Below, one piece after another: positions 644-20,055 of a DNA stretch of 64,000 nucleotides. The notes beneath the pieces are model-generated. The model did not search any database. It had not been told where the DNA came from and was given only the letters and a program-made list of their open reading frames with translations. Position numbers and translations under genes: made by a program. The stretch is from Balneola sp. Its GTDB lineage: Bacteria > Bacteroidota > Rhodothermia > Balneolales > Balneolaceae. Each line of letters opens with the position of its first letter. The stretch's first letter is position 1. The stretch is from positions 806,001 through 870,000 of the forward strand of contig RHLJ01000001.1 in NCBI GenBank assembly GCA_003712055.1, given 5' to 3'.

Positions 644-886
644 CAAATCCCTCTTGATTCTCTTGTGGTATATCTTGTTATTCTTGTATTAGCAATAAAG
701 CTTCATGCAAATCGAATGGATTCAGAGAAAAGGGCATAGAGGTAGAGGATAAATCATTTTGGATCTCGTAGTACTTGATCCGGAAATAGAGATTGATACC
801 AGAACCTTAACAGCATTTGCTCGACTTCTTTTGCAACTTCACTCAATTATACATCAAGAATAAATCGAAGAATTAAGAACTCAGGT

Positions 887-3277: not shown

Positions 3278-3294
3278 CTCCTCAATACCGAAAG

Positions 3295-4404
3295 ATGATA
3301 AAACTTACTCGAAATTCAATTATAGCAACTGCCTTCCTGTTAATCATCGGAAGTTGTAGTAGTGAAGAAGCTACTCCTCCTGAAACCGTACGCCCTGTAG
3401 TTTATCATACCGTAGGTTTAAGTGGTGGGGAAGTAATCCGAACTTTTAGTGGAACTGCCCAGACGGATAAAATCATCAACTTGAGTTTCAGAAGTAGCGG
3501 TATAATTACCGAACTAAATATGAAACTTGGAAACCAGGTTAAGAAAGGAGATTTGCTAAGTCAGCTGGATAATGTTCAAGCCCGATTATCTCATGAACAA
3601 TCAGTGGCATCTCTAAATAGTGCTGCTTCCCAAATGAATACTTCAGAATTGAACCTGGAAAGGATCCGATTACTTTACGAAAAAGGAAGTGCTTCACTAA
3701 GTGATTTTGAAAATGCTAAAAACTCATTTCGTACCGCCCAAGCTAGTTACGAATCGGCTCAGCGAAGCGTGGATATTCAACTTGAGCAAATCAACTATGG
3801 ATATCTGTATGCTCCTGAAGATGGTGCTATAGCTGCAGTAAATGTTGAGCTTGAAGAAAATGTCTCGCCCGGACAGGTAGTTGGAGTATTAAATGCGGGC
3901 CTGGATATGAACATTGTCTTAGGAATACCCGAAAGTGTGATCAATCGCCTGTTTCCTCAAATGGAGGTTGGAATAAGTTTTAGTGCCCTTCCAAATAAAA
4001 CATTTGTAGGCCGGGTAAATGAGATCTCCCCCGCTTTGGATGCTAATACTTCGACCTACCCTATCGAAATCGGAGTTATTGATCCGACTGACGAAATCAA
4101 ATCAGGAATGGCTGCCAATGTAACCTTCAACTTTGCAGAATCTATTGGCAGCAGTGAGTCTATCGTTATTCCGGCTAATGCTGTTGGTGAAGACCAAAAT
4201 GGTCGTTTTGTCTACCTGATCAACGAACAAACTGGTACAGGTAGCACCGTCAATAAAAACTATGTTCAAATTGGAGCATTGACTTCAGAAGGTTTTGAAA
4301 TTGTTGACGGCCTAAGCGTTGGGCAGAAAATTGCCACAGCAGGATTGCAAACGTTATTAGACGGCCAAAAAGTAACGCTATTCTCAAGTCAGGGGTCTCT
4401 ATGA
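3295..4404 (+). CDS. RND efflux periplasmic adaptor (membrane fusion protein), lipoprotein
   Basis: The 369-residue protein has a lipoprotein signal (lipobox IGSC, Cys near residue 21), then the HlyD/AcrA architecture: barrel-sandwich half (GIITELNMKLGNQVKKGDLL), a short helical hairpin (about 90-160), the second lipoyl half (YLYAPEDGAIAAVNVELEENVSPGQVV split by that hairpin), a beta-barrel and a membrane-proximal domain. It would link the TolC-like protein to the inner-membrane pump. Its stop overlaps the pump start (ATGA), which argues for translational coupling. The short hairpin is usual for RND adaptors of this phylum. Confidence 0.92.
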   Translation: MIKLTRNSIIATAFLLIIGSCSSEEATPPETVRPVVYHTVGLSGGEVIRTFSGTAQTDKIINLSFRSSGIITELNMKLGNQVKKGDLLSQLDNVQARLSHEQSVASLNSAASQMNTSELNLERIRLLYEKGSASLSDFENAKNSFRTAQASYESAQRSVDIQLEQINYGYLYAPEDGAIAAVNVELEENVSPGQVVGVLNAGLDMNIVLGIPESVINRLFPQMEVGISFSALPNKTFVGRVNEISPALDANTSTYPIEIGVIDPTDEIKSGMAANVTFNFAESIGSSESIVIPANAVGEDQNGRFVYLINEQTGTGSTVNKNYVQIGALTSEGFEIVDGLSVGQKIATAGLQTLLDGQKVTLFSSQGSL

Positions 4405-7400
4405 ACATTACTCAATTTGCAATTGAGCGAAACCGAATAACCTTTATTGTTCTCATTACCATCATTTTGATGGGCTTAAGTTTATTCAACAGCCTCCCAA
4501 GAGATAGTATGCCTCCGTACACAATCAGGGTTGCGAATATTATTAGCAGCTTTCCGGGTGCCAGCCCTGAAAGGGTTGAACAGTTAGTCAGTTTTAAAAT
4601 TGAAAAGATCGCTCAGGAATTACCTGAGCTTGATGAAGTTACCAGTACTTCCAGAACCGGACTCTCAGTAGTAAGTGTAACTTTGAGAGATGAAGTAAAC
4701 CCTGAGGATTTACAAGAGGTATGGGATCGCTTACGTCGAAAATTGGACAATATGGAGGGACTCCCCGAAGGGGTAGTCCCGGAACTCAACGATGATGGTA
4801 TTGGGGATGTGTATGGAATCGTAGTTGGGTTAACCAGTGATGGGTTCAGCTATGCCGAAATGGAAGAATTTGCTGATGACATTCGAGACGACCTGATCAA
4901 ACTCGAAGATGCTGCTAAAGTAGAAATCGGTGGGAAACAAGAGGAACGAGTATTTATCGAATTCGATAATACCCAACTCGCGGAGTATCAACTCACCTCC
5001 TCTCGACTTCAAAGTATAATTGCTTCAACCAATATCCTGAGTTCCGGTGGTGAAATTTATATGGGAGATGAAAGCATCATCCTCGAGCCTACCGGAAACT
5101 ATAACGAAATTGATGACATCCGACAGACGCTGATTCCCGTTGGAAATCAAACACAGTTAGTATATCTGGAAGACATCACCAATATCACCAAAGGGTATAT
5201 CAATCCGCCAAAGCAATTGGTGCGTGTAAACGGGTTAAATGCCCTCTCTCTTCATGTTAATCTGAAAGACGGAGCCAATGTCATCAAGCTGGGAGAAGAC
5301 ATCAATATGGTTATGGAAGAATGGAATGCCAAACTTCCTGTAGGGCTAGAATTAGTCCGCCTTTCTTCCCTTGATACCTACATCGATGTTAAAATCTCTG
5401 ACTTTATTGGAAACCTGATACAATCGATTGTTATCGTACTTGCGGTAATGCTCATCTTTTTGGGATTCAGAACCGGAACCATCATAGCCAGCCTCATCCC
5501 TATCGTTACCATCATGACTCTTATGTGGATGGGTATTATCAATATGGGATTGAACCAGGTAACCTTAGCAGCACTCATCATGGCTTTAGGGATGATGGTG
5601 GATAATGCCATTGTGGTCGCCGAATCGGTGATGGTGAAAGTAGAACATGGCAAGGATACCTTCAAAGCAGCAGTTGAATCCTGCTCTGAACTCTTTACTC
5701 CCTTACTCATATCTACGCTTACAACCTCCGCTGCATTTATGGCTTTCTATCTTGCAGAATCAACAATGGGTGATATTGTAGGACCAATTTTTGTGGTAAT
5801 CACTCTCGCCTTACTTTCTTCATGGCTGGTGGCACTTACTGTGGTAACTTTACTCTGCTACTACTTCTTGAAAGTGAAGCCCAATGCTCTTGAAAACCCG
5901 GGTTTAGTCGACAGACTTATAAATTGGACAAAAGGCATTTACCGTGTTTGGATCCTTAATGCTTTGAAGAATAAGTACCTGGTGATTTTAGGAATTTTTG
6001 TGCTATTCATGGTGTCCATGTTTGGGTTTACACAAATTGCCTTCCTTTTCTTCCCGGATAGTGATCGAAATATGATTACCGTTGATATCAACCTGGGTGA
6101 GGGAACGCGCATTGAAAGCACCCAAGAAACTGTACGCGGGCTTGAAGATTATTTCACCAGCGAATTGTTGATCAATGATTCCAGACCTGATGGTATTATA
6201 AACTGGTCTTCCTTTATTGGAGAAGGCCCCGAATCTTATGACCTGGGATACCAACCTGACGAAGCCAATTCGAGCTACGCTCATATCCTGGTAAATACCT
6301 CTGAAGCCAGCTACAATAACGCACTAATTAGCACTATTGACGAATTTGTCATTCAAAATTTCCCTAACGCTGATATCAAAGTTGGCCCTCTGGGCGCTGG
6401 AGGAGGTGGTGTTCCTATCGAGATCAGAATTATTGGAGAAAACCCTGATGAACTTGCAAGCATCTCAGAATCTGTAAAAATCAGGCTTTCATCTATTTAT
6501 GGCACTAAAAATGTGAAAGACGACTGGGGTCCTAAGAGTAAAAAATTCGTAATCCAGATTGATGAGAACCGGGCACAAAATGCGGGAATCACTAACCAGG
6601 ATATTGCTACTTCCCTACAAACCGTACTTACAGGATTCAGAACCGGAGAGTATCGGGAAGATGATAAAAGTATCCCAATCCTGATGCGAAGCGATGTGGG
6701 TAGTGAGCAATCCTTAGAATCGCTGGAAACATTAAATATCTACTCCCAAAGCTCTGGCAAAAGTGTTCCTCTACTCCAGGTAGCTCAGATTATCCCTGAA
6801 TGGCAGTATTCTAAAATTCGACGGTTCAACCTAAATCGTGCAGTAAACATAACAAGTGAATTAAAAGAAGATGGGAATGCAGCTGCAATCGTTTCTGAAA
6901 TAACTCCCTGGCTGGATGAAGAAATGCAAAATTGGCCAAACGGATATCGATATGAATTAGGAGGGGATGCACAGAATTCTGCCGATAATATGAGTGCCGT
7001 TATTGCCTGGCTTCCGCTTTCAGGGTTCATTATCGTGCTATTATTAATCATCCAGTTCAACTCATTCCGAAAAATGGTAATGGTCACCCTTACTATTCCT
7101 CTAGGTGTTATTGGAGTAGTAATCGGATTGTTAGTTTTTGGAGAGCCCTTTGGGTTTATGCCCTTCCTTGGAGTAATCTCTTTGGCGGGTATTATTATCA
7201 ATAATGCTATTGTACTAATCGACCGGATCGAAATTGAGCAAAATGAACTTAAACGATCTACACATGACTCTATAATAGCTGCGTGTTTACAACGATTTCG
7301 TCCGATTGTACTGGCTACCTTTACCACGGTATTTGGCTTAATACCGCTCTACTTAAGTGGAGGTGAAATGTGGGAAGGTATGGCCGTATCTATTATGGTG

Positions 7401-7514
7401 GGTTTGTTATTTGGAACAGTAATTACTCTCGTATTTATTCCCTCTCTGTTCAGTATTCTCTACCGGGTTAACTATAAAGAGTACGAACTAAATCCTGAAT
7501 TGAAGTCTATTTGA
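4401..7514 (+). CDS. RND multidrug/solute efflux pump, inner-membrane subunit
   Basis: At 1037 residues this has full AcrB length. It shows the RND layout: TM1 near 12-30, first large periplasmic loop, TM2-6 (about 335-470), TM7 near 525-545, second periplasmic loop, TM8-12 (about 860-1025). The duplicated RND fold is visible in the paired motifs MMVDNAIVVAES (TM4) and IIINNAIVLIDR (TM10). AcrB has two adjacent proton-relay aspartates in TM4; here they are Asp401-Asn402. Conserved SFPGASPERVEQ near residue 48 is typical of HAE-type pumps. It overlaps the adaptor gene by 4 bases. Substrate cannot be read from the sequence. Confidence 0.93.
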   Translation: MNITQFAIERNRITFIVLITIILMGLSLFNSLPRDSMPPYTIRVANIISSFPGASPERVEQLVSFKIEKIAQELPELDEVTSTSRTGLSVVSVTLRDEVNPEDLQEVWDRLRRKLDNMEGLPEGVVPELNDDGIGDVYGIVVGLTSDGFSYAEMEEFADDIRDDLIKLEDAAKVEIGGKQEERVFIEFDNTQLAEYQLTSSRLQSIIASTNILSSGGEIYMGDESIILEPTGNYNEIDDIRQTLIPVGNQTQLVYLEDITNITKGYINPPKQLVRVNGLNALSLHVNLKDGANVIKLGEDINMVMEEWNAKLPVGLELVRLSSLDTYIDVKISDFIGNLIQSIVIVLAVMLIFLGFRTGTIIASLIPIVTIMTLMWMGIINMGLNQVTLAALIMALGMMVDNAIVVAESVMVKVEHGKDTFKAAVESCSELFTPLLISTLTTSAAFMAFYLAESTMGDIVGPIFVVITLALLSSWLVALTVVTLLCYYFLKVKPNALENPGLVDRLINWTKGIYRVWILNALKNKYLVILGIFVLFMVSMFGFTQIAFLFFPDSDRNMITVDINLGEGTRIESTQETVRGLEDYFTSELLINDSRPDGIINWSSFIGEGPESYDLGYQPDEANSSYAHILVNTSEASYNNALISTIDEFVIQNFPNADIKVGPLGAGGGGVPIEIRIIGENPDELASISESVKIRLSSIYGTKNVKDDWGPKSKKFVIQIDENRAQNAGITNQDIATSLQTVLTGFRTGEYREDDKSIPILMRSDVGSEQSLESLETLNIYSQSSGKSVPLLQVAQIIPEWQYSKIRRFNLNRAVNITSELKEDGNAAAIVSEITPWLDEEMQNWPNGYRYELGGDAQNSADNMSAVIAWLPLSGFIIVLLLIIQFNSFRKMVMVTLTIPLGVIGVVIGLLVFGEPFGFMPFLGVISLAGIIINNAIVLIDRIEIEQNELKRSTHDSIIAACLQRFRPIVLATFTTVFGLIPLYLSGGEMWEGMAVSIMVGLLFGTVITLVFIPSLFSILYRVNYKEYELNPELKSI

Positions 7515-7527
7515 TCTTGAGCTATGA

Positions 7528-7950
7528 ATGAATCATTATTCTGAATCTGAAATTGAATCACTAATTCATCGCTTCGAAGCTAGAAGGTTACCAAAAAGCG
7601 AATGGACACATGAAGCTCATCTTGTAGTAGCCATCTGGTACAGTAAGAAGTATGACTTTACTACGGCATTGGATTTAGTGAGAGAGAATATTACCAAGCA
7701 TAATGAGTCCGTAGGGACACCTAATTCCGATACGGAAGGTTATCATGAATCCATTACCAGGTTCTGGCTCTTAACTGCTCATAAATTTATCAATGCTAAT
7801 TCATCCCTAGCGCTTTCAGAATTATGTAATGATTTTATCGATTCTGAATTTGGAAGGAGCGATTATCCCCTTACGTACTATTCCCCGAATCTTTTGTTTT
7901 CGGTTGAAGCCAGACATGCATGGGTAGAGCCGGATATAAAGGCTATATAA
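7528..7950 (+). CDS. Conserved uncharacterised protein, 140 aa
   Basis: A soluble protein without signal or membrane segments. It carries the block SEWTHEAHLVVA near the N-terminus and EGYHESITRFWL near residue 70, both of which look strongly conserved and His/Glu rich, suggesting a helical protein with a possible metal or ligand site. I have seen this type annotated only as hypothetical, so I give no function. It begins 13 bases after the RND pump and may be the last gene of the efflux operon. An ATG four bases earlier is out of frame. Confidence 0.7.
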   Translation: MNHYSESEIESLIHRFEARRLPKSEWTHEAHLVVAIWYSKKYDFTTALDLVRENITKHNESVGTPNSDTEGYHESITRFWLLTAHKFINANSSLALSELCNDFIDSEFGRSDYPLTYYSPNLLFSVEARHAWVEPDIKAI

Positions 7951-8056
7951 GAGTCTTCATTAAGTCTACAAGTCCTAAAAATAACTATAGCTTAATGGAC
8001 ATTGGATTAGTGATCTTACATATTGTTCCTTGTCAAGATCAATCAATCTCAAAGCC

Positions 8057-9229
8057 ATGAAAAAAATCATTCTCTCCCTTTCAGTAATACTCATTCTTTC
8101 AACTACTTCTTTACTCTCTCAAACATTGCAACAAGTAGTGAATAATGGAAACACAACTTCAACGAGTATCACTCATACAAATATGAATGGGTTTACTTTG
8201 AAAAACAATAACATTCCTGACAGTACCTTCAATGCCCTTCGAATTGGGCAATACGGGGGAAGCGCCCAGCAAATCAGGTTTGTTCCTTATTCAACAGGAG
8301 GCTTGTCCTGGGACTGGTCCCACGATTTAATTTATGATTTTACCAATACCCATTGGATCGTGGATGGCAACTTCATCGCTTTAGATAATTTGGGAATTGG
8401 AACTACTTCTCCTGCCACTAAACTTCATGTTTGGGGTGGATCATCTTCCTTCCCACAGGTACGAATCCATGAATCTGGGGGGTTGTTAAGTATGGATTTA
8501 GGCCACGATGGTGAAAACTCAATTTTCGAATCTAATTTTGGAGATTTTCTTTTTAGATATGGAAACATTGGTATCGGGACAGAATCTCCAGACGAACTAA
8601 TACACATGAGCTCAGGCACGTCCGGTGATGCTGTTCTAAAACTGGAATCAGATACGGATAATAATGCTGAAGGAGATAACAGCCGAATTGAAATGTTACA
8701 AGATGGAGGTGCGCATGGAGCTACAATAGGGTTTAATTTAGATTGGAGTGGTACTGAACCCGATAACCTCTTTCGAATAGTACCCAGAAGAAGTAGTACT
8801 GATAAAGATGATGCCTTTATAATTAAAACTACCGGAAGTACAGGAAATATAGAGAGTTTCGTAGGTATTGGGACTACTGATCCTACCAACGCACTCGAAG
8901 TGAATGGTACCATTCGCTCTAAAGAAGTAATTGTAGAGGCTACAGGCTGGCCTGATTTTGTATTCCTTCCTGAATACAACCTTCTCTCTTTGGAAGAACT
9001 AGAAGCATTCATTTCAACGAATAAGCATTTACCAGATGTACCTAATGAAGCAGAAGTAGAAGAAAACGGGATCAAACTAGGAGAAATGGACGCCACCTTG
9101 CTCAAGAAAATCGAAGAGTTAACTCTTTATGTAATTGAGCAGAATAAACTGAATAAAGAACAGCAGGAAAGGATTGAGAAGCTTGAGAAAATGAATGCTG
9201 AGCTCTTAAAGAAGCTTGAAGGTAAATAG
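8057..9229 (+). CDS. Secreted tail-fibre-like surface protein
   Basis: I start it at the ATG at 8057 because MKKIILSLSVILILSTTSLLSQ is a clean signal peptide; an in-frame ATG at 8030 adds nine residues of poor signal character. The body has repeated Gly-rich segments of the form NLGIGTTSPATKLHV, NIGIGTESPDELIH and FVGIGTTDPTNALEV, typical of beta-helical tail-fibre-like proteins of Bacteroidota. Near residue 320 is the conserved HLPDVPNEAEVEENGIKLGE block, then a coiled coil (LNKEQQERIEKLEKMNAE) to the C-terminus. It is likely exported or surface-attached and trimeric, by family resemblance. It stands alone. Confidence 0.8.
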   Translation: MKKIILSLSVILILSTTSLLSQTLQQVVNNGNTTSTSITHTNMNGFTLKNNNIPDSTFNALRIGQYGGSAQQIRFVPYSTGGLSWDWSHDLIYDFTNTHWIVDGNFIALDNLGIGTTSPATKLHVWGGSSSFPQVRIHESGGLLSMDLGHDGENSIFESNFGDFLFRYGNIGIGTESPDELIHMSSGTSGDAVLKLESDTDNNAEGDNSRIEMLQDGGAHGATIGFNLDWSGTEPDNLFRIVPRRSSTDKDDAFIIKTTGSTGNIESFVGIGTTDPTNALEVNGTIRSKEVIVEATGWPDFVFLPEYNLLSLEELEAFISTNKHLPDVPNEAEVEENGIKLGEMDATLLKKIEELTLYVIEQNKLNKEQQERIEKLEKMNAELLKKLEGK

Positions 9230-9244
9230 TCCGGGATTACTTCT

Positions 9245-9388
9245 CCCGACATTCGTCGGGATCGTAAAGGTTTCCTTTTGCGAGGAGTATCAAGACTAAT
9301 TCGGGGAATATGGTTGTATCGACGAAGCAATCTCGTGGAATTTGGGAAATATTCTGAAATTGCTTCGCTCCGCCTGCCTGCCGACAGG
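9245..9388. repeat. Composite palindromic repeat region with degenerate GCGAGGAGT...GAAGCAATCTC element
   Basis: The gap 9230-9480 holds three small hairpins: CCCGAC/GTCGGG (9245-9260), GAAGCAAT/ATTGCTTC (9324-9366) and CCTG/CAGG (9377-9388). Bases 9278-9334 begin TTTGCGAGGAGT and end TATCGACGAAGCAATCTC; the same element occurs on the opposite strand at 43221-43279. It is a dispersed non-coding repeat. No gene is seen here. Confidence 0.55.
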
Positions 9389-9480
9389 TTTAGGATGACT
9401 TCGTTATGAGAATTTTTCTCATTTTGTCCTGACCCAATTTTCCCTTTTATTGTGCTATTTGAATCAGAAAAGGGCTATTC

Positions 9481-10911
9481 ATGGATCAGAATAATGCTGT
9501 TGCTACTGCTAAGCCTGTACCGTTTGGGCAGAAAGTAGCTTTTGGATTAGGTATGCTGGCAAACCAAATGTTTCCGGCGGCAATGTCAATTTTTATGGTG
9601 GTACTCGTGCAGGACCTGGGATTCCCGGGATGGATGTGGGGAGTACTCTTCTTTTTACCCCGTTTGATGGATGCGTTTACCGATCCCATTATGGGATTTA
9701 TTTCGGACAATACACGTTCCAGGTGGGGCCGAAGAAGACAATATGTGTTTGTTGGAGCAATACTTTCCGGGCTGACCTATATCGTACTATGGCAGCTTTA
9801 TCGTGAAAATGGAGTAGACTATAACTTTACCTATTTCCTGATCTGTTCTTTCCTGTTCTACCTTTCCTTTACCATTTTTAGTGTCCCTTATGTGGCCATG
9901 GGTTATGAGATGAGCGACGATTTCCATGAGAGAACAAACATCATGGCGATTGCTCAATGGATAGGACAGTGGGCCTGGGTTATCGCACCATGGTTCTGGG
10001 TAATTATGTACGATCCTGACTGGTTTACAAATGCCGATGGAGCTACAAGGACGCTAGCCTTATGGGTCGGAATTATATGTGGAGGATTGGCTATGGTCCC
10101 TGCCCTTTTCATTAAGAGTGATCCAACTACGGGACGGGAAGATTTTGAGCCATTGACCATGAATAATATTGGAGGAAGCTTAAAAGAGATTTTATACGGT
10201 TTTGGAGAGTCTTTCAAAATTAAGCAGTTTCGAAAAATGTGTTTCGCCACCTTTTTGATCTTCAATTCATTCAATACGGTGGCGAGTTTTACCTTCTTCA
10301 TTGTGGTGTATTATCTGTTCAGTGGAGATGCCGCAGCAGCAGGAGTTTGGCCTACCTTATTTGGTAGTATCGGAGCTTTAGGTACTACCTTTATTGTAAT
10401 TCCTGCAACCGCATGGATTTCCAAAAAAATTGGAAAGAAGCCTGCATTCATGGTATGTCAATCCATTTCTTTTGTAGGATATGTTTTGCTTTGGTTCTTC
10501 TTTATCCCAGGCAAACCCTACATGTTCTTATTCGCTCTCCCCTTCTTTTCTTTCGGGATTGGAAGCCTCTTCACAATTATGATGTCTATGACTGCAGATG
10601 TGTGTGACCTGGATGAATTAAAATCGGGTAAGCGAAGAGAAGGTATTTTTGGCGCCATTTACTGGTGGATGGTTAAATTTGGTTTCGGGATCGCCGGTTT
10701 ATTAACCGGAGCTATTATGACTCTAGTAGGTTTTGATGTTGCCTCTGGCGCTACTTCCGGAGCTCCAATGACTGGATTAAGGCTCTTTTTCTCCGGACTT
10801 CCAATGTTTGGAACTTTATTAGCCATGTTCATCATGTCGGGATATGATCTTGATGAAGAGAAAGCCAATGAAATACGTGTTGAATTAGAAAAAAGGCAGG
10901 CTCAAGCTTAA
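9481..10911 (+). CDS. GPH-family sugar:cation symporter (MFS)
   Basis: This 476-residue protein has about 12 hydrophobic segments and the diagnostic loop between TM2 and TM3, DAFTDPIMGFISDNTRSRWG followed by RRR, which is the signature of the glycoside-pentoside-hexuronide symporter family (MelB type). A second signature is seen at MTADVCDLDELKSGKRREG, about residue 370, also typical of GPH. It lies in the inner membrane and should import a disaccharide or oligosaccharide with a cation. It is directly followed by a GH17 lipoprotein (13 bases), so short beta-1,3-gluco-oligosaccharides are the likely cargo; that is inference from context. Confidence 0.88.
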   Translation: MDQNNAVATAKPVPFGQKVAFGLGMLANQMFPAAMSIFMVVLVQDLGFPGWMWGVLFFLPRLMDAFTDPIMGFISDNTRSRWGRRRQYVFVGAILSGLTYIVLWQLYRENGVDYNFTYFLICSFLFYLSFTIFSVPYVAMGYEMSDDFHERTNIMAIAQWIGQWAWVIAPWFWVIMYDPDWFTNADGATRTLALWVGIICGGLAMVPALFIKSDPTTGREDFEPLTMNNIGGSLKEILYGFGESFKIKQFRKMCFATFLIFNSFNTVASFTFFIVVYYLFSGDAAAAGVWPTLFGSIGALGTTFIVIPATAWISKKIGKKPAFMVCQSISFVGYVLLWFFFIPGKPYMFLFALPFFSFGIGSLFTIMMSMTADVCDLDELKSGKRREGIFGAIYWWMVKFGFGIAGLLTGAIMTLVGFDVASGATSGAPMTGLRLFFSGLPMFGTLLAMFIMSGYDLDEEKANEIRVELEKRQAQA

Positions 10912-10924
10912 ACTGTATTGATTG

Positions 10925-12178
10925 ATGAAAGTACTCCTCTTCTCACTAGTAACAGCCAGTTTATTTCTCATTATGGGATGTACACAAACTGAAACTCCCC
11001 CATCTAAAACAGCTGCCGAAATACTAGGTGATCCAAATTACCAAGCGATTTCCTATGGGGCTTTTCGGGAAAACACCAGGGATATTGTCCCTACGGTTGA
11101 ACAGATTAAAGAAGATTTAATCATTCTTTCTGCTTTGAACATCAAGGTATTGAGAACTTACAATACCCAGCAGTACCCACATGCTGAGAATATCCTCAAA
11201 GCAATAAAATCACTAAAGGAAGAAGATGACTCTTTTGAAATGTATGTGATGTTGGGTGCGTGGATTGAAGCCAAAGGTTCCTGGACGGATACAGTTATTC
11301 ATGATGAGGAAAACCTGGAGAATAATACTGCAGAGATAGATGCAGCAGTAAGAATGGCTAAAGAATATCCGGATATTGTGAAAATCATCGCCGTTGGTAA
11401 CGAAGCAATGGTTCACTGGGCTGCTACTTATTTTGTTACCCCGGATATCATTCTTAAATGGGTGAATCATCTTCAAGACCTTAAAGTCAAAGGCGAGCTC
11501 CCTGCCGATCTCTGGATTACCAGTTCTGATAATTTCGCTTCCTGGGGTGGCGGTGGAGAAGAATATCTAAATGATGATCTTGCCAGTCTTGCTGCAGCCG
11601 TCGATTTTGTTTCCATGCACACTTACCCTTTTCATGATAGCCATTATAATAGTGCGTATTGGTTGAGCAGAAGCGAGGAGGAAAATCTTACTGATACAGA
11701 GCGAATTGATTTAGCCATGATCCGTGCCAGAGATTATGCAAAAGCTCAATACCAAAGTGTAGTAGATTATGTCACTGGGCTGGGACTAGATAAGCCCGTG
11801 CATATTGGTGAAACGGGCTGGGCTTCTGTTTCTACTGATCTGTATGGCTCAACAGGTTCAAAAGCAGCTGATGAGTACAAGCAAAAGCTCTTTCACGATC
11901 ACTTAAGGGAATGGACTGATGCAGAAGGAATTGCCTGCTTCTATTTTGAAGGTTTTAATGAACAATGGAAGGACAAGCTAAATCCAACCGGTTCTGAAAA
12001 TCATTTCGGATTATTTACTATTGATGGAAAGGCCAAATATGTACTTTGGGATGTAGTTGATGCGGGAACCTTTGATGGAATGACAAGAGATGGAAACCCT
12101 ATCACTAAAACCTATGATGGCAACCTGGATGACTTAATGGATGATGTCGTCGCTCCGGAGTTTGAGGGTCAGGATTAA
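10925..12178 (+). CDS. GH17 family beta-1,3-glucan hydrolase, lipoprotein
   Basis: Start taken at the ATG at 10925 (a TTG lies just before it). Residues 1-20 form a lipoprotein signal with lipobox IMGC. The rest is a GH17-type TIM barrel: YGAFRENTRDIVPTVEQIKEDL at the N-terminus, the acid/base in VGNEAMVHW (Glu160) and the nucleophile in IGETGWAS (Glu296), both matching GH17 signatures. GH17 enzymes cleave beta-1,3- or 1,3/1,4-glucans or act as beta-1,3-glucanosyltransferases. Being a lipoprotein, it acts in the periplasm or on the cell surface. It is cotranscribed with the GPH symporter in all likelihood. Confidence 0.88.
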   Translation: MKVLLFSLVTASLFLIMGCTQTETPPSKTAAEILGDPNYQAISYGAFRENTRDIVPTVEQIKEDLIILSALNIKVLRTYNTQQYPHAENILKAIKSLKEEDDSFEMYVMLGAWIEAKGSWTDTVIHDEENLENNTAEIDAAVRMAKEYPDIVKIIAVGNEAMVHWAATYFVTPDIILKWVNHLQDLKVKGELPADLWITSSDNFASWGGGGEEYLNDDLASLAAAVDFVSMHTYPFHDSHYNSAYWLSRSEEENLTDTERIDLAMIRARDYAKAQYQSVVDYVTGLGLDKPVHIGETGWASVSTDLYGSTGSKAADEYKQKLFHDHLREWTDAEGIACFYFEGFNEQWKDKLNPTGSENHFGLFTIDGKAKYVLWDVVDAGTFDGMTRDGNPITKTYDGNLDDLMDDVVAPEFEGQD

Positions 12179-12190
12179 ACCTAATGCTTA

Positions 12191-12272
12191 GTCATCCCGG
12201 GCCCAGACCTGGGATCTGTAGTGGAAGAAAGAGATTAGCTTCTTCAGATCCCGCATCGGAGTGCGGGATGAC
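12191..12272. repeat. Nested inverted repeat between convergent GH17 genes
   Basis: GTCATCCCG (12191-12199) pairs with CGGGATGAC (12264-12272), and inside it GGGATCTG (12211-12218) pairs with CAGATCCC (12245-12252). A similar GTCAT...ATGAC element is at 21437-21516. It fills the space between two genes that converge, so it may also act as a bidirectional terminator, although no clear poly-T tract follows. Confidence 0.6.
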
Positions 12273-12285
12273 CATTTACTAGTAA

Positions 12286-13224
12286 TCAAAAATACTCCTG
12301 AAGAACCAGCTTCGGAGTTCTGTCTACTTTGAAAAGCCCCCAATGCTTCTCAGGTTCGAGAGGCTCAGGGGAACCTTTCCAGGGTTCGTCAAAAGCTTCG
12401 AACACAAAAGTCAGCACATCCTCTTTATAGCTCCATCGAATTAAGTCCTCGTAGTACTTCTTCTGGAATTCTTCATTCACATTATGAGGCTCAATCCCTC
12501 TACCATTCGATTTAGTCGTCCACCCTGCTTCCGTTATTACCACTTCCTTATGAGGATATTTATTAACTACTGAGTAATAATTCTCTTTAGTGTATGCCAT
12601 TGACTCATCAATGGATTTATACTCCCAAACCGGATAGGTATGAATAGAGATGAAATCTACTACTTCAACCAGAGATTCTAATTTGTGTAGCCAGGTTAAG
12701 TAGTTCTCACAGAAGGTAACTGGCTGACTCGTCTCCTGTTTTACCCTTTCTACAAAATGAATAACTCGATCAACAGGAACCATATGATCAGTCCATTCAA
12801 CCGTAGCTTCATTCCCTACTGAAAGTGAGAATATAATTTCTGGATACTCATTTGCGAGGCTAATCAGCTTTTGAATGCGCCCTTCATTCCATGCCTTATT
12901 CTGTTCTAGCTCCTCATCAGAATACATACCTCCCCAGGGGCAATTTGGATTACTTACTTCGGCCGCGATATAAGCTCCCATCATCACCTTGAAATCAAGA
13001 TTCTCTTTCTTTATCACCTCAAGAACCCTTTCTGAATGAAGATCACAATCATATAAACGAAGATATTTCCAATGCCCATGAAGGATCATCAGGTCTTCTT
13101 TGATCTCTTCATAAGTAGGAAAAACCCCAGTATCCGGGCTTTGCCCTTCTCTAAATCCGGAATAGCATATTGCCTTCCTGGTATAAAACTCCAAGTCTTG
13201 TATTTCCGCCATCTGTCTACTCAC
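12286..13224 (-). CDS. GH17 family beta-1,3-glucan-active enzyme, cytoplasmic-type
   Basis: A 312-residue GH17 barrel without signal peptide. Acid/base in VGNEATVEW (Glu139), nucleophile in ITEAGWTTK (Glu232). The N-terminus, AICYSGFREGQSPDTG, is the first barrel strand with the GFREGQ block shared with the next protein. It is the last gene of a three-gene minus-strand operon, 13 bases after its GH17 neighbour. Lack of a signal suggests it works inside the cell on imported oligosaccharides, or as a transglycosylase; this is inference. It is only distantly similar to its neighbour. Confidence 0.87.
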   Translation of the reverse strand: MSRQMAEIQDLEFYTRKAICYSGFREGQSPDTGVFPTYEEIKEDLMILHGHWKYLRLYDCDLHSERVLEVIKKENLDFKVMMGAYIAAEVSNPNCPWGGMYSDEELEQNKAWNEGRIQKLISLANEYPEIIFSLSVGNEATVEWTDHMVPVDRVIHFVERVKQETSQPVTFCENYLTWLHKLESLVEVVDFISIHTYPVWEYKSIDESMAYTKENYYSVVNKYPHKEVVITEAGWTTKSNGRGIEPHNVNEEFQKKYYEDLIRWSYKEDVLTFVFEAFDEPWKGSPEPLEPEKHWGLFKVDRTPKLVLQEYF

Positions 13225-13237
13225 TTAATAAATTCAG

Positions 13238-14122
13238 TCAGAATTTAAGGTTTTCATCTTTATCCCATAACCCCCAATATGCACCAACATCTCCTTCGGC
13301 TCCCACTTTCCAGGGTTCGTCGAATGAAGAAAAGTAGAAGATCTCGATATCTTCATTGGCTGACCATATCTGAGTATTAATGAAATACCTCATAAAATTC
13401 ACATCCGAAGGGTGTGAATCCTTAAAAGACTCTCCTTTATTTGGCCAACCAGTTTCGGAGATTATAACTCTTTTTCCTTTGGCTGCCCGTACTGCCTGGT
13501 TGAACATGTCCTTCATATAAAGCAGAGAATAATCAATATGGCAGCCTTCCCAATAAGGGTAGCAATTAGCCAGAATTACATCTGTGGCATCAACGATTTC
13601 CGGGTGGCTTGAAAATTCATAATAAGCGTCTACATAGCCCACAGGTATGTTGGGAATGGCTTCCTTAACTCTATGTATAAAGCCTAATAATTCTTCCAGA
13701 CTTAGATCACCACGGTATAAAACTTCGTTTCCAACTGCTGCGATATCAACATGACCAGCTTTTGCTAGTGAGATTAATGACTCAATTTCACGTTCATTTT
13801 TGTCAGCATCTGTACCCAGCCAAGCTCCAACCATGGTTTTTAAACCATTTTCGTGAGCAATTTGAGGGATTAATTCATTGCCATCGGTACAAGAAAACGA
13901 TCGTACCCATTTTGTATAGGGCTTCAGGATTTCCATCCGGCGCCGAATTTGTCCTTCCGAAAGCTGATCACCAGGCTCCTGCCCCTCTGTATAGGCACTA
14001 AATCCGATCCCGTGCATTCCTGATTCCAGAGTTTCTCTGAATAATGCAGGCAGATTTTCATCTGCTTCAACTGTACCAATTGCTCTTAACAGAGCAAACC
14101 TATTTTCCTTTTTATATGACAT
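13238..14122 (-). CDS. GH17 family beta-1,3-glucan-active enzyme, second intracellular copy
   Basis: A 294-residue GH17 barrel, no signal peptide. It shows GIGFSAYTEGQEPGDQLSE (first strand), the acid/base in AVGNEVLYRG (Glu133), the nucleophile in ISETGWPNKG (Glu223) and FYFSSFDEPWK near the end, which the neighbouring GH17 also has as FVFEAFDEPWK. ETGWP is the classical GH17 signature. It lies between a secreted GH2/GH5-like lipoprotein (21 bases upstream) and another GH17. Two cytoplasmic GH17 paralogues side by side suggests division of labour on linear and branched beta-1,3-gluco-oligosaccharides. Confidence 0.87.
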   Translation of the reverse strand: MSYKKENRFALLRAIGTVEADENLPALFRETLESGMHGIGFSAYTEGQEPGDQLSEGQIRRRMEILKPYTKWVRSFSCTDGNELIPQIAHENGLKTMVGAWLGTDADKNEREIESLISLAKAGHVDIAAVGNEVLYRGDLSLEELLGFIHRVKEAIPNIPVGYVDAYYEFSSHPEIVDATDVILANCYPYWEGCHIDYSLLYMKDMFNQAVRAAKGKRVIISETGWPNKGESFKDSHPSDVNFMRYFINTQIWSANEDIEIFYFSSFDEPWKVGAEGDVGAYWGLWDKDENLKF

Positions 14123-14143
14123 TACCTTTTAATTTTTTTGTAG

Positions 14144-15163
14144 TTAGTCTCTGGTAAATGCTTCTTTTACCACATCATATACTGGTTTTTTATTTCGATC
14201 AATATCCACAATTCCCCAATACTCTTCATTCGGAGTTCCGTCATAGGGTACGCCGGTACTGTTAGGAGCCCACCCTCCTTTGTCCTGTGTTTCCGGATTT
14301 CCAGCCTTCCACAAGCCATCTGTAAATTGAAAAACTGTTACTCCTGCTCCGATTTCTTTATTTGCCAATACATCTTCTAAAATATTTGTGACGGCATCTA
14401 CCTGAGCTTGTTCATTTACCCCTTCAGCATAGCCATGATTTTCAATAGTCATGTAGCTATCTGCTCCGGCCTCAGCGAGGTACATAGGCTTATCACTTCG
14501 CTCCTTCCACTCCTCGTAAATTTCTTCTGGGTTATCCCATCGATATACATTCATCCCCCAAACATCCACATTAGGTACTAGAGCAAGGATTTCCTCACTA
14601 GGGATTTCGCCATGGGCAGTGGCTACAGGGTGATCTTGATCTACCTCATGTATTTTAGCTGCAGACTCATTCAATGCGGTGTACCAATTATTGATATCGT
14701 TGTCGAACCATTCGGGGTGGTAATTGTATTCGTTACCCAGTTCCCACATTAGAATTGCAGGATGGTCTTTATACATTGATACATAGTCAATGAAAGTTCC
14801 GGATAGAATATCGTACTCACCGTTTTGGTTATAGCCAAAACCAACAATCACTTTTATTCCTGCTTCAGCCAAAGCATCTAACACCCATTCCTCCTGGATA
14901 GGCTCATATACCCTGATGGTGTTAATTCCTGCCTCTTTCATTAAGCTTAAATCGCCTTCAAGGGGACTAAAATCTCGCTTTGTTTCCCCCTTAGCTACTG
15001 GATGATAGCAGATACCCTTAATAAAATAGGGCTCCCCGTCTATAATCAACGCCCGGTTATTTGCCTCAGGCTTTTCCTGCGATTCTTGCACACAGTTAAT
15101 CATAAGTACAGCAGAAACTACTATAAGTAACGCCGCAATTTTTCTACTATATCGCTCAAACAT
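14144..15163 (-). CDS. Lipoprotein glycoside hydrolase with GH2/GH5-like TIM barrel
   Basis: I prefer the start at 15163 (MFERYSRKIAALLIVVSAVL, lipobox INC); an ATG at 15202 adds 13 residues before the signal. The mature protein is a clan GH-A barrel resembling the catalytic domain of GH2: FIKGICYHP, AGINTIRVYEP, acid/base in WELGNEYNYH (Glu145) and nucleophile in YLAEAGADSY (Glu231). GH2 sandwich domains are absent, so at 340 residues it is a lone barrel. Probably a beta-glucosidase/glucanase or beta-glucanosyltransferase-like enzyme facing the periplasm. First gene of the minus-strand GH operon, expressed from the divergent promoter with tandem operators. Confidence 0.78.
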   Translation of the reverse strand: MFERYSRKIAALLIVVSAVLMINCVQESQEKPEANNRALIIDGEPYFIKGICYHPVAKGETKRDFSPLEGDLSLMKEAGINTIRVYEPIQEEWVLDALAEAGIKVIVGFGYNQNGEYDILSGTFIDYVSMYKDHPAILMWELGNEYNYHPEWFDNDINNWYTALNESAAKIHEVDQDHPVATAHGEIPSEEILALVPNVDVWGMNVYRWDNPEEIYEEWKERSDKPMYLAEAGADSYMTIENHGYAEGVNEQAQVDAVTNILEDVLANKEIGAGVTVFQFTDGLWKAGNPETQDKGGWAPNSTGVPYDGTPNEEYWGIVDIDRNKKPVYDVVKEAFTRD

Positions 15164-15243
15164 GGTTCCTAGATGAATTGAGGGTAGAGTATATAACTTC
15201 ATATTCTTTTATAAAACTGTTTTAATCAATATCATTTCACACG

Positions 15244-15268
15244 GAAACGTTTCATGGAAATGCATTTC
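15244..15268. promoter_or_regulatory. Two tandem palindromic operators, LacI/GalR-like
   Basis: In the 207 bases between the divergent GH operon and the phosphorylase gene are two perfect palindromes 3 bases apart: GAAACGTTTC (15244-15253) and GAAATGCATTTC (15257-15268). The first has the central CG and GAAACG half site usual for LacI/GalR-family repressors. Their place is ideal to control both directions together. No LacI-family gene is in the window, so the regulator must be encoded elsewhere or the site belongs to another family. Confidence 0.5.
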
Positions 15269-15370
15269 TAATTGCAAAAAACTAATCGGCTCACTACCAT
15301 CCTTGTCTTCGAAAGGGTAAAAAAGACTTCCTTTCTCTGACTATTCAAAAAAACTAACTGCTACTTTATC

Positions 15371-18300
15371 ATGGCTTCCAGCGGGATTAACCTAGGCTCA
15401 ACTACATTCAACAACTCCCAAAAAGATATCGATGGGTTGTTCATAACCATTGAAGGTGTTGAATACTACAAGATCAATAATTACGATCATATGCCACCAT
15501 TTTTTATTAGTGTGGTCAGTGATTCAGATCATTGGTTATATATATCAACAAAAGGTGGGTTAACTGCAGGGCGTAAGAATCCGGAAAATGCGCTATTTCC
15601 TTACTACACGGATGATAAGATCCATGACAGTGCTGAGACTACCGGAAGCAAGACCATTGCCTTAGTTACTAAATCTGATCAAACATACTTATGGGAACCA
15701 TTTACCGATCGTTTTCAAGGTGTGTATATTATTGAGCGGAATCTCTATAAAAGCATAGCGGGTAATCAGCTTATTTTTGAAGAGATCAATCATGACCTTA
15801 ATCTGTCATTTACATATAGCTGGAATAGCAGTGATAAGTACGGCTTTGTAAAGAAATCTTCGATCAACAACCTTGGAGGAAGCGATGTTGAAATCAGGAT
15901 TGTTGATGGCCTTCAAAACCTACTGCCTTATGGGATTGATCGCCGGATGCAAAATGAATACAGCACCTTATTGGATGCCTACAAGAAGAATGAACTCCAG
16001 GCAGATTCCGGATTGGGTTTATATTTACTAAGTGCAATCCCCGTTGATAAAGCTGAGCCTAGTGAATCGCTAATGGCTACAACTGTATGGTCTGCAGGTA
16101 TTGATGTATCAAACTATCTGCTTTGTTCTGACCAATTGGAGGAATTCAGGAAAGGAAAAGTACTTAACCCGGAAACGGATGTCAGAGCAAGAAGAGGTGC
16201 TTACTTTATTGAGTCTTCTTTTAAACTATCCCCTAAGAAAACTGAAAGCTGGTACTTTGTTGCTGAGCTGAACCAGGGGCCTTCAGAAGTAGTTGCTCTT
16301 AATGAATGGATAAAAAACGAATCTAATAAACCTGCTCTTCTCGAAGAGGATATTGCAGCGGGTACAGAACATCTTACTAAAATAGTTGCCAGTTCTGATG
16401 GTATTCAGAAATCCAGCGACAAGATGATGGATGCCCGGCATTTCGCGAATACAATGTTCAATGTAATGCGGGGAGGAATTTTCGATGATAACTACCAGGT
16501 TCAGGTAAGTGACCTGAAAGGCTTCTTGAATGGATTCAATACATCTATTACGGCAAAGTATGAAACAACCCTGAATAGCCTGCCATCAGAAATTTCCTAC
16601 TCTCAGCTACTCGAGTTAGCAAATGAACAAAATGATACTCAACTGAAGCGTCTGGTACTTGAATACTTACCGCTTACATTCAGTCGAAGACATGGAGATC
16701 CAAGCCGACCCTGGAATCAGTTTTCTATTGAATTGAGAGAAGATAATGGAGACAAAAAGCTTTACTACGCAGGTAATTGGAGGGATATTTTTCAGAACTG
16801 GGAAGCACTGGCTCTTTCCTACCCTACTTTCCTTGAAGGAATTATTTCAAAATTTGTCAATGCTTCCACTGCCGATGGCTACAACCCTTATCGAATTACA
16901 CGTGATGGAATCGATTGGGAAGTAATTGAAGAAGACGATCCCTGGTCGTATATAGGTTATTGGGGAGATCACCAAATCATCTACTTGCTTAAACTTTTAG
17001 AACTGTCGCTCTCTCATCATCCTCAAGCTCTTTCAGAAATGCTTGAACAACGAAATTTTGCTTATGCAAATGTCCCATATCGAATCAAAGGTTATGAAGC
17101 TCTTCTGAAAGACCCAAAAGACACCGTAGATTTCGATCATGAATTGGAGGCTATTACCGAACAACGTACCTCTGAAATAGGTGCCGATGGTAAACTTATC
17201 TGGAATAAAGAAGGTGAGATTTACCTCGTAAATCTAACCGAGAAACTATTAGTTACTCTTTTAGCAAAGCTATCCAATTTCATTCCTGAAGCAGGAATTT
17301 GGTTAAATACTCAACGTCCTGAATGGAATGATGCTAACAATGCACTGGTAGGAAGTGGTGTTTCGATGGTTACGCTGTTCTACATCAGGCGGTATGTCAC
17401 CTTCTGTAAGAAGCTCTTTTCACAATCCAATAGTTCTGAGTTTTCTATCTCATCTGAAGTAGCTGAATTATTACAAGCTATACATTCTTCATTAGATACT
17501 TATAGCTCAGAATTATCAGGAGCGATTTCTGATGAGTTGAGAAGAAAAATTGTTGATGATCTTGGGAAGGCGGGTGAGAAATACCGAAATCAGGTATATG
17601 GAGGATTTTCTGAAAAGCAGGAATCCATAACCTCAAAAGACTTAGATTCCTTTTTTGATGCAGCATTAAAACATATCGATCATACTATTGAGGCTAATAA
17701 GCGTGACGATAATTTGTACCATTCTTATAACTTGATGGGAGTTAAAAAAGATGGGGGGATTGGAATTCGCTACCTCTATGAAATGCTTGAAGGTCAGGTT
17801 GCCGTACTAAGCTCAGGAAAACTTGAAGTAGCAGAAACAATAGAACTGCTTAAAGCATTACGTCAATCGAGTCTCTACAGGAAAGATCAACATAGTTATA
17901 TCCTTTATCCCGATCGCCAATTACCGAGGTTTTTTGATAAAAACATTATCTCTAAATCGGATGTTGAGTCATCTGAACTCTTATCAAAACTTGTGAAAGA
18001 TGGGGATACCCGTCTAGTGGAAAAAGATGTGATGGGTAATTACCACTTCAATGGCAGCTTTAATAATGTAAAGGATGTTGTTGAAGTACTTGAATCCCTA
18101 ACAGATGAACATTCAGAACTAGTTGAAAAAGAAACTGAACATATACTGAATGCATTTGAATCTGTATTCGACCATCAATCCTTTACTGGTCGATCAGGTA
18201 CTTTCTTCGGATATGAGGGACTTGGCTCGATTTACTGGCACATGGTTTCGAAACTAATTCTGGCTGTGGAGGAAAACTGCTGGGAAGCCATCAATAGTGA

Positions 18301-18826
18301 AGCAGATGACAAGCAGGTTAAAGAATTGATTGATCTTTACTATGATGTAAGGCAAGGACTTGGTACTCATAAAACCGTTGAGAATTATGGAGCCTTTCCA
18401 TCAGATCCTTATTCACACACTCCGGGAACTGGCGGAGCAAAACAACCTGGTATGACCGGACAGGTTAAGGAAGATATCCTTTCCAGGTTTGGAGAATTAG
18501 GCATGTATGTTGAAGAAGGACAAATCAAAATAAGGACCGGATTATTGAAAGAATCTGAGTTCCTTAATACTGCTGATTCCTTTACCTATATCGCCTTAAA
18601 CGGAGAAGAAAAAAGCCTTGCTCTCGAAAAAGGCTCACTGGCTTTTACATACTGCCAGGTTCCGTTTATATATCAGTTGTCTGATACTGAATCACTAACT
18701 ATTTCCTTTGCGGATGGAAATACCACAACATTGGATAGCCTGTCATTGTCGGCCGAGTTAAGTTCGAAGCTTATGAACCGTACCGGGGAAATAGAAAAGG
18801 TAAAAGTGGGTATATCTGCTATTTAA
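15371..18826 (+). CDS. Very large GH94/GH149-like beta-glucan phosphorylase
   Basis: The protein is 1151 residues long with no signal peptide, so cytoplasmic. The first 300 residues are beta-rich and resemble the N-terminal super-sandwich of GH94-type phosphorylases (HWLYISTKGG, TDRFQGVYIIERNLYKS, GLQNLLPYGID). The middle and C-terminal parts are helical with YIGYWGDHQIIYLLK near residue 530, as in the (alpha/alpha)6 barrel of clan GH-Q enzymes, and GYEGLGSIYWHMVSKL near residue 950. About 1100-1200 residues is the size of GH149 beta-1,3-oligoglucan phosphorylases, larger than GH94. With three GH17 genes alongside, phosphorolysis of beta-1,3-glucan oligosaccharides to glucose 1-phosphate is the best guess. 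The family assignment is from memory and needs a profile search. Confidence 0.7.
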   Translation: MASSGINLGSTTFNNSQKDIDGLFITIEGVEYYKINNYDHMPPFFISVVSDSDHWLYISTKGGLTAGRKNPENALFPYYTDDKIHDSAETTGSKTIALVTKSDQTYLWEPFTDRFQGVYIIERNLYKSIAGNQLIFEEINHDLNLSFTYSWNSSDKYGFVKKSSINNLGGSDVEIRIVDGLQNLLPYGIDRRMQNEYSTLLDAYKKNELQADSGLGLYLLSAIPVDKAEPSESLMATTVWSAGIDVSNYLLCSDQLEEFRKGKVLNPETDVRARRGAYFIESSFKLSPKKTESWYFVAELNQGPSEVVALNEWIKNESNKPALLEEDIAAGTEHLTKIVASSDGIQKSSDKMMDARHFANTMFNVMRGGIFDDNYQVQVSDLKGFLNGFNTSITAKYETTLNSLPSEISYSQLLELANEQNDTQLKRLVLEYLPLTFSRRHGDPSRPWNQFSIELREDNGDKKLYYAGNWRDIFQNWEALALSYPTFLEGIISKFVNASTADGYNPYRITRDGIDWEVIEEDDPWSYIGYWGDHQIIYLLKLLELSLSHHPQALSEMLEQRNFAYANVPYRIKGYEALLKDPKDTVDFDHELEAITEQRTSEIGADGKLIWNKEGEIYLVNLTEKLLVTLLAKLSNFIPEAGIWLNTQRPEWNDANNALVGSGVSMVTLFYIRRYVTFCKKLFSQSNSSEFSISSEVAELLQAIHSSLDTYSSELSGAISDELRRKIVDDLGKAGEKYRNQVYGGFSEKQESITSKDLDSFFDAALKHIDHTIEANKRDDNLYHSYNLMGVKKDGGIGIRYLYEMLEGQVAVLSSGKLEVAETIELLKALRQSSLYRKDQHSYILYPDRQLPRFFDKNIISKSDVESSELLSKLVKDGDTRLVEKDVMGNYHFNGSFNNVKDVVEVLESLTDEHSELVEKETEHILNAFESVFDHQSFTGRSGTFFGYEGLGSIYWHMVSKLILAVEENCWEAINSEADDKQVKELIDLYYDVRQGLGTHKTVENYGAFPSDPYSHTPGTGGAKQPGMTGQVKEDILSRFGELGMYVEEGQIKIRTGLLKESEFLNTADSFTYIALNGEEKSLALEKGSLAFTYCQVPFIYQLSDTESLTISFADGNTTTLDSLSLSAELSSKLMNRTGEIEKVKVGISAI

Positions 18827-19083: not shown

Positions 19084-20055
19084 TTGAACCGTATCGACCG
19101 ACTTACCGCAATCATCATTTTTCTTCAGGGAAGGAAATATGTTCCTATTGAGGAACTAGCTGAGCGATATGGAATCAGTGAGCGTACTGCCTACCGGGAT
19201 TTAAAAGCTCTTGAAGAAGCCGGAATCCCTCTGGGGATTGAAACAGGAAAAGGATATTACATTCTCAGAGGATATCACCTCCCCCCTGTTATGTTTAGCA
19301 AAAGTGAAGCTATGGCTTTACTTGCAGCCGAACGGTTAATGCAGAAATGGAATAACTCGGAACTGGGTAAATCCTATCATTCGGCCTTAGATAAAATACG
19401 ATCTACCCTACGCGCTGAAGACAAGGATTTCTTTGAAACCATGGATAACCATGTAGCAAACCTATATCCCGAGGCTAATAACTCTGATTTTTCTGACTCA
19501 GACATTTTTTCCTTTTTGCAGCAAGCTATTTTTAAAAATGAGCTTATCGAGATTGACTATAAAAGACCCTATGGTGAAGAAGTGCTTTGCCGGAAAATTG
19601 AACCCCTTGGTTTGTTAGTCCGCGGTAGAAACTGGTATTTAGCAGGCTGGTGCCGGTTGAGAGATGATTACAGGATGTTCCGCTTAGATCGTTTTGAGGC
19701 TTATAAAACTACAGAAGAAAAGTTAGCTCAACCTCCTGTACATACTCTGAAAGAGTTCCATGACCGAACACTGCATCGCGAACACGAATTGAAAGAAGTT
19801 ACGGTTTGGTTCAGTACGAGAATAGCACGTTACATGGGTGATGGGAAATTCTTACATGGCTGGGCATGGGAAAAAATTGTAGAGGATGGAGTAGAGATGA
19901 CTTTTCTTACTCCATCCATCCACTATACTGCCCGCTGGATTTTAACCTGGGGCAAAGAAGTCAAAATCCTTCGCTCTGATGAAATGAAGCAGGTTCTTAG
20001 AGAAATATCCGAAGAATTATTTGAGCATTATTCAGAGCTGGAAAAAGAATTTTAA
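19084..20055 (+). CDS. YafY-type transcriptional regulator, HTH plus WYL domain
   Basis: A 323-residue regulator with TTG start (no better ATG nearby). Residues 1-60 form a DeoR-like HTH_11 (LAERYGISERTAYRDLKALE), followed by a linker, a WYL domain at about 145-225 (EIDYKRPYGEEVLCRKIEPLG and RGRNWYLAGWCRLRDDYRMF, carrying the W-Y-L) and a C-terminal WCX extension. WYL domains sense nucleic acid or small ligands. Here it leads the DinB and reductase genes downstream (80 bases) and follows the glucan cluster, so which one it controls is unclear; homologues often sit beside DinB or RibD-like genes, which favours the downstream genes. Confidence 0.85.
   Translation: MNRIDRLTAIIIFLQGRKYVPIEELAERYGISERTAYRDLKALEEAGIPLGIETGKGYYILRGYHLPPVMFSKSEAMALLAAERLMQKWNNSELGKSYHSALDKIRSTLRAEDKDFFETMDNHVANLYPEANNSDFSDSDIFSFLQQAIFKNELIEIDYKRPYGEEVLCRKIEPLGLLVRGRNWYLAGWCRLRDDYRMFRLDRFEAYKTTEEKLAQPPVHTLKEFHDRTLHREHELKEVTVWFSTRIARYMGDGKFLHGWAWEKIVEDGVEMTFLTPSIHYTARWILTWGKEVKILRSDEMKQVLREISEELFEHYSELEKEF

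Follow-up and report, generated by a model that had tools for sequence, protein, structure and literature searches.

A GH149 phosphorylase locus of Balneola sp. with two types of cytoplasmic GH17 enzyme and a recurrent GH-A barrel

Analysis of a 64,000-nucleotide stretch of a Balneola sp. genome (C1:806001-870000, hereafter the window) revealed that positions 9481-18826 encode a genuine beta-1,3-glucan locus that looks functional and belongs to a known, widespread kind. It is quite probable that this compact locus serves the use of laminarin or a similar beta-1,3-glucan, by way of outside cutting, uptake, and then phosphorolysis together with transglycosylation. Laminarin ranks among the main carbon sources in the sea, and more is known about how bacteria cut it outside the cell than about what they do with it once it has been taken up. 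Here, three kinds of GH17 enzyme (secreted endo, cytoplasmic endo-like and cytoplasmic transglycosylase-like) could be set apart around GH149, and comparison pointed out a secreted barrel recurring in such loci as an uncharacterised enzyme. To published work, our data add a division of the cytoplasmic GH17s into two types, together with a residue rule open to testing, and an unclassified barrel that recurs.

Six open reading frames were confirmed in the locus, and Pfam and NCBIfam placed their products as an MFS_2 symporter, three GH17s, a GH-A type barrel and GH149. The originally predicted gene content (a GPH symporter, one secreted and two cytoplasmic GH17s, a secreted GH-A barrel and a 1151-residue protein) agreed with the domain searches. 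The features are as follows:

9481..10911, + strand: GPH/MFS_2 sugar:cation symporter, inner membrane, 476 aa (Pfam PF13347)
10922..12178, + strand: GH17a, lipoprotein of endo-beta-1,3-glucanase (laminarinase) type (PF00332, lipobox)
12286..13224, - strand: GH17b, cytoplasmic, endo-laminarinase type with extended beta3-alpha3 loop (no signal peptide, loop, AlphaFold model, tree)
13238..14122, - strand: GH17c, cytoplasmic, MlGH17B type, predicted beta-1,3-glucanosyltransglycosylase (residues, short loop, clade)
14144..15202, - strand: GHA, secreted GH-A clan (beta/alpha)8 barrel, probable outside-acting beta-glucanase (Glyco_hydro_2_C, orthologues, model)
15371..18826, + strand: GH149 beta-1,3-glucan phosphorylase, cytoplasmic, 1151 aa (NCBIfam NF058639, 6hq6 match)

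The symporter gene is followed by GH17a after a 10-bp gap on the + strand, GHA, GH17c and GH17b are separated by 21 and 13 bp on the - strand, and GH149 diverges from GHA over 168 bp. This spacing suggests three transcription units: symporter-GH17a, GHA-GH17c-GH17b, and GH149. An HTH/WYL regulator is encoded just downstream of GH149 (19084-20055), with only one partial match among the related loci (L013).

Judged by sequence, the product of 15371-18826 is an ordinary GH149 beta-1,3-glucan phosphorylase of clan GH-Q. A profile search of the 1151-residue protein, set beforehand as the refuting test, placed it inside this clan: it matched the NCBIfam GH149 model (NF058639; equivalog cut-off 1150 bits) with 1760 bits over residues 17-1148, and PDB 6hq6 (Pro_7066) with 1296 bits over residues 15-1148. 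The clan GH-Q active-site motif EWNDANNALVG was identical in the alignment of the window protein with 6hq6, and we take its Asp to be the catalytic one, as in GH94. Of the initial label 'GH94/GH149-like', only the GH149 part was retained; GH94 or GH161 identity was rejected, with 59.5 bits to GH161 and 'cellobiose phosphorylase' chains versus 1296 to GH149. Nor could the protein be regarded as very large or otherwise unusual, since both its score and its length are those of a normal GH149 (about 1150 aa; 1175 aa in 6hq6).

GH149 matches were identified in at least 591 stretches of species genomes and in 34 of the 92 genomes of the window's own family, and a plasmid search for GH149 returned relatives of less than 60% identity only. 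The GH149s of the window and of a genus mate (G039) grouped with L053 and L004 in the GH149 tree, apart from 15 other own-family sequences, so that the window locus has a separate history (transfer, or loss of alternatives). The window and G039 share the six genes, both without GH30 and GH16 and in an order different from the usual family locus (large barrel, Big-domain protein, GH16, GH149, GH17a, GH30, GPH, often GH17-fused, GH17c, GH17b). Another genome of the same genus, G040, carries this large locus, and the GH149s of G039 and G040 (loci L145 and L146) fell in different parts of the tree. A Brockarchaeota MAG contig (L042) has a GH149 that was placed near Acidobacteria sequences. In several family loci, large CBM_4_9 proteins, possibly involved in surface glycan binding, are encoded downstream of GH17b (L147, 3-2957; L153, 17952-20000; one with a SusE domain).

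The whole genome contains three GH17 genes, all within the locus. Their products pass the Pfam PF00332 cut-off and possess the Asn-Glu acid/base and the Glu nucleophile. GH17a carries the lipobox FLIMGC and grouped with the GH17a proteins of the Formosa Hel1_33_131 and Muricauda loci, and signal peptides were absent from GH17b and GH17c as well as from nearly all members of both groups. The stretch from GA[WY] to GNE, which we used as a loop measure over 179 GH17 sequences, had 49-52 residues in GH17a, 57-58 in GH17b and, as a rule, 35 in GH17c and in GH17 domains fused to transporters. According to PMC13188888, laminarinases are distinguished by a long beta3-alpha3 loop, and transglycosylases and FbGH17B by a short one. 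The tree joined GH17b to GH17a rather than to GH17c, and the AlphaFold model of GH17b (mean pLDDT 86) best matched the endo-laminarinase 6fcg (E 1.6e-16). On both tree and model, GH17b is classed as a cytoplasmic enzyme of endo-laminarinase type, and GH17b and GH17c are two different types, not redundant copies.

GH17c lies inside a clade of stand-alone cytoplasmic GH17s (support 99) in a tree built without the MlGH17B and RmBgt17A sequences. It has the characteristics of MlGH17B, a cytoplasmic GH17 transglycosylase of Muricauda, as taken from PMC11005184 and PMC13188888: Tyr136, Trp191 and Glu192, matched via the motif positions given in these papers, and a short beta3-alpha3 loop (35). The clade and the three signature residues support GH17c as a predicted beta-1,3-glucanosyltransglycosylase. 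It had been thought odd that two intracellular GH17s, which would compete with the phosphorylase, stand beside it, unless one were a transglycosylase or a debranching partner. The grounds for surprise are mostly covered by earlier papers: GH149 beside a cytoplasmic GH17 and a pfam13347 transporter, whether or not susCD is there, was reported in 2018 (PMC5827456), and fusions of a transporter to GH17 have also been found (PMC6246565). The transglycosylase suggestion is borne out for GH17c as far as clade and residues go, and a debranching role is supported for neither protein. Because a transglycosylase keeps the glycosidic bond, only small competition is expected from GH17c, whereas GH17b, being of endo type, could compete with GH149.

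A rather unlikely alternative is that GH17b and GH17c do no more than hydrolyse: imported oligosaccharides would be broken down by them to glucose and laminaribiose alongside GH149, and transglycosylation would be physiologically minor. Close relatives can differ in activity: FbGH17B, 53% identical to MlGH17B, is reported as an exo-hydrolase (PMC11005184) that releases glucose (PMC6246565, PMC11005184), and GH17b itself is of an endo-hydrolase type. However, residues corresponding to Tyr136/Trp191/Glu192 were kept in 60 of 60 scored stand-alone GH17c rows, the window included, whereas the fused, exo-type domains had Leu or Met at the Tyr136 position in 18 of 20 (L154, one of the two exceptions, sits within the stand-alone clade), and with hydrolysis the bond saved by GH149 would be lost. 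We prefer the reading of GH17c as a transglycosylase.

The symporter matched Pfam PF13347 (MFS_2) with 212.9 bits (E 7.7e-63; cut-off 27) and NCBIfam gph (TIGR00792) with 191.7 bits over the full model length; as the latter cut-off (231) was missed, we call it GPH-like on the basis of Pfam and context. GPH-GH17 fusions (775-820 aa) were found in 20 related loci (for example, L146, L151, L154-L157 and L159), and their transporter halves share 64-79% identity with the window's symporter. These fusions tie uptake to a cytoplasmic GH17, as in Formosa, where a transporter-GH17 fusion has exo-beta-1,3-glucosidase activity (PMC6246565). Outside Flavobacteriia, symporter-GH17 fusions were also observed in the window's own family, Algoriphagus and Saprospiraceae. 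Beside GH149, GH17c was present in 58 of 97 loci and GPH in 74 of 97, and GH17c never occurred without GPH (58/58); it should be noted that these loci were gathered via GH149 and are related to each other, and that the counts do not represent independent events. Likewise, GH17b was never found without GH17c in the loci compared (18/18). A mutual exclusion of GH17b and SusC (0/18) was dropped (p 0.056, loci not independent). Symporter uptake followed by intracellular phosphorolysis of beta-1,3-gluco-oligosaccharides, as first proposed, fits all of this evidence: the GH149 score, the recurrence of GPH and GH17c, and the fusions.

The secreted barrel is a single domain of 339 residues, counted from the likely start at the ATG at 15163, and most of its orthologues have a lipobox Cys. 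It matched Glyco_hydro_2_C (37 bits) and, weakly, Glyco_hydro_72 in Pfam, and GH158 9oro with 43 bits (phmmer). Close orthologues (about 54-69% identical), which carry WELGNEYN and SEAG catalytic motifs, occurred in 13 loci including the window, 7 of the 13 with a SusC match. Among 60 loci of at least 18 kb holding either this barrel or a larger related one, none had both (Fisher p 3e-7, uncorrected for relatedness). For the barrel model, in which residues 281-313 have low confidence, Foldseek ranked GH158(Pro) first (9p26, 21% identity), whereas VIA-align ranked GH2 glucuronidases first (Z 25.4), closely followed by GH72 (ScGas2, 23.5) and GH157 (23.4). BuGH158 has a C-terminal Ig-like domain (PMC7157763) that is absent from this single-barrel architecture; a settled GH158 assignment is unsupported. 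We regard the protein as a GH-A clan barrel that probably acts outside as a beta-glucanase.

No SusD or TonB-plug match was found in the whole window, in line with the earlier remark that SusC/SusD are missing here, and without such a pair the locus is a CAZyme cluster rather than a strict polysaccharide utilization locus. The organism itself does not lack SusC/SusD, as four pairs are encoded elsewhere in the genome. One is surrounded by GH144-like and GH3 genes and one by GH53 and GH2, and no glycanase was recognised by eye near the remaining two. The pair at C1:993-998 kb, the best match to Flavobacteriia laminarin pairs, was rejected as a laminarin pair because of its neighbours: a GH144-like protein (resembling the endo-beta-1,2-glucanase 5gzh), a second Glycoamylase-domain protein and a GH3. 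This region (L141, G000:C1:985000-1004999) is likely a beta-1,2-glucan locus of the same genome. Two tandem secreted GH16s at C5:191-193 kb (L165, G000:C5:182000-201999, 9579-11257), away from the GH149 locus, indicate that longer glucan can be cut outside. A GH30 near endo-beta-1,6-glucanase (392 bits, cut-off 700) is encoded close to a TonB receptor at C3:134-145 kb; this stretch (L166, G000:C3:134000-153999, 767-10588) also encodes a LacI-like regulator and a T9SS-tailed protein, and no SusD partner of the receptor was recognised there.

Taken together, lipoprotein GH17a, and probably also the GH-A barrel, would cut the glucan to short oligosaccharides outside the inner membrane, across which the GPH symporter would move them. 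In the cytoplasm, GH149 with phosphate would shorten them stepwise until glucose is left, yielding glucose 1-phosphate. Transglycosylation by GH17c may redistribute chain lengths and so give laminaribiose as well as longer chains, each of which GH149 can use, and GH17b may cut longer or obstructed chains. Gene identities, signal-peptide status, clades, signature residues and the recurrence of the gene set were observed directly; substrate, direction of flux and exact activities in this scheme are what we infer, and the outer membrane would be crossed through porins or a TonB receptor encoded elsewhere, for instance that at C3:134-138 kb. Several points stand against it: Pro_7066 phosphorolyses chains from laminaribiose upward, all lengths about equally (PMC5827456), which leaves no obvious need for a chain-lengthening partner; the FbGH17B precedent noted above applies to GH17c; and the window has no outer-membrane transporter. 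Only tentatively do we suggest the more specific combination of a GH17c-GH149 transglycosylase-phosphorylase pair for cytoplasmic beta-1,3-glucan (a logic like that of MalQ/MalP in maltodextrin use), endo-cutting by GH17b inside the cell, and a new laminarin-acting GH-A family founded by the secreted barrel.

It is improbable that the substrate is another beta-glucan (for example, mixed-linkage or beta-1,6-branched fungal) rather than laminarin. The GH-A barrel is unclassified, several beta-glucans serve as substrates of GH17s and of GH158/GH157-like barrels, and the GH30 mentioned above resembles endo-beta-1,6-glucanase. On the other hand, the characterised GH149 EgP1 acts exclusively on beta-1,3-linked glucose oligosaccharides (PMC5827456), and characterised GH17 relatives from such loci are laminarinases. 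That the cytoplasmic enzymes handle the cell's own storage or osmotic beta-1,3-glucan, with GH149 in the synthetic direction, is very unlikely: phosphorylases are reversible and MlGH17B products have been proposed to serve storage (PMC13188888), but in this genus the symporter and two secreted glycanases belong to one and the same set of six genes, and they also occur in many laminarin loci with SusC/SusD.

Several similar systems are known. GH149 next to a cytoplasmic GH17 (COG5309) and a pfam13347 transporter was published in the founding paper of 2018, as were Bacteroidetes GH149 CAZyme clusters without susCD (PMC5827456). The window shares GH149, cytoplasmic GH17, the pfam13347 transporter and a secreted glycanase with these Bacteroidota clusters and the Alteromonadales type II clusters, some of them without susCD, but lacks GH16, GH3 and GH30_1 and has two cytoplasmic GH17s of differing type and the unclassified GH-A barrel. 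The laminarin locus of Formosa sp. Hel1_33_131 shares GH149, the GH17a lipoprotein, a GPH-type transporter and GH17c; it alone has SusC/SusD, GH16, GH30 and a transporter-GH17 fusion (PMC6246565), whereas the window has an unfused symporter and GH17b. That of Muricauda lutaonensis (PMC13188888, PMC11005184) shares the secreted endo GH17, a cytoplasmic GH17 with the transglycosylase residues, the transporter and GH149, and differs by GH30_1, GH16 and a GH2-annotated enzyme, with GH17b not reported there. In the SAR92/Cellvibrionales loci L007 and L014, GH17c divergent from GH149, GPH and a GH-A barrel were present, SusC/SusD were not found, and L007 also has GH17b; their barrel, of a longer type (416-434 aa), differs from that of the window. 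For own-family loci, SusC/SusD were found neither in the 20-kb stretches by BLAST with the genome's own pairs nor among ten edge ORFs by Pfam, both searches of limited reach. A Formosa-like laminarin locus was also observed in a MAG labelled Rhodobacteraceae (L050), possibly through mis-binning.
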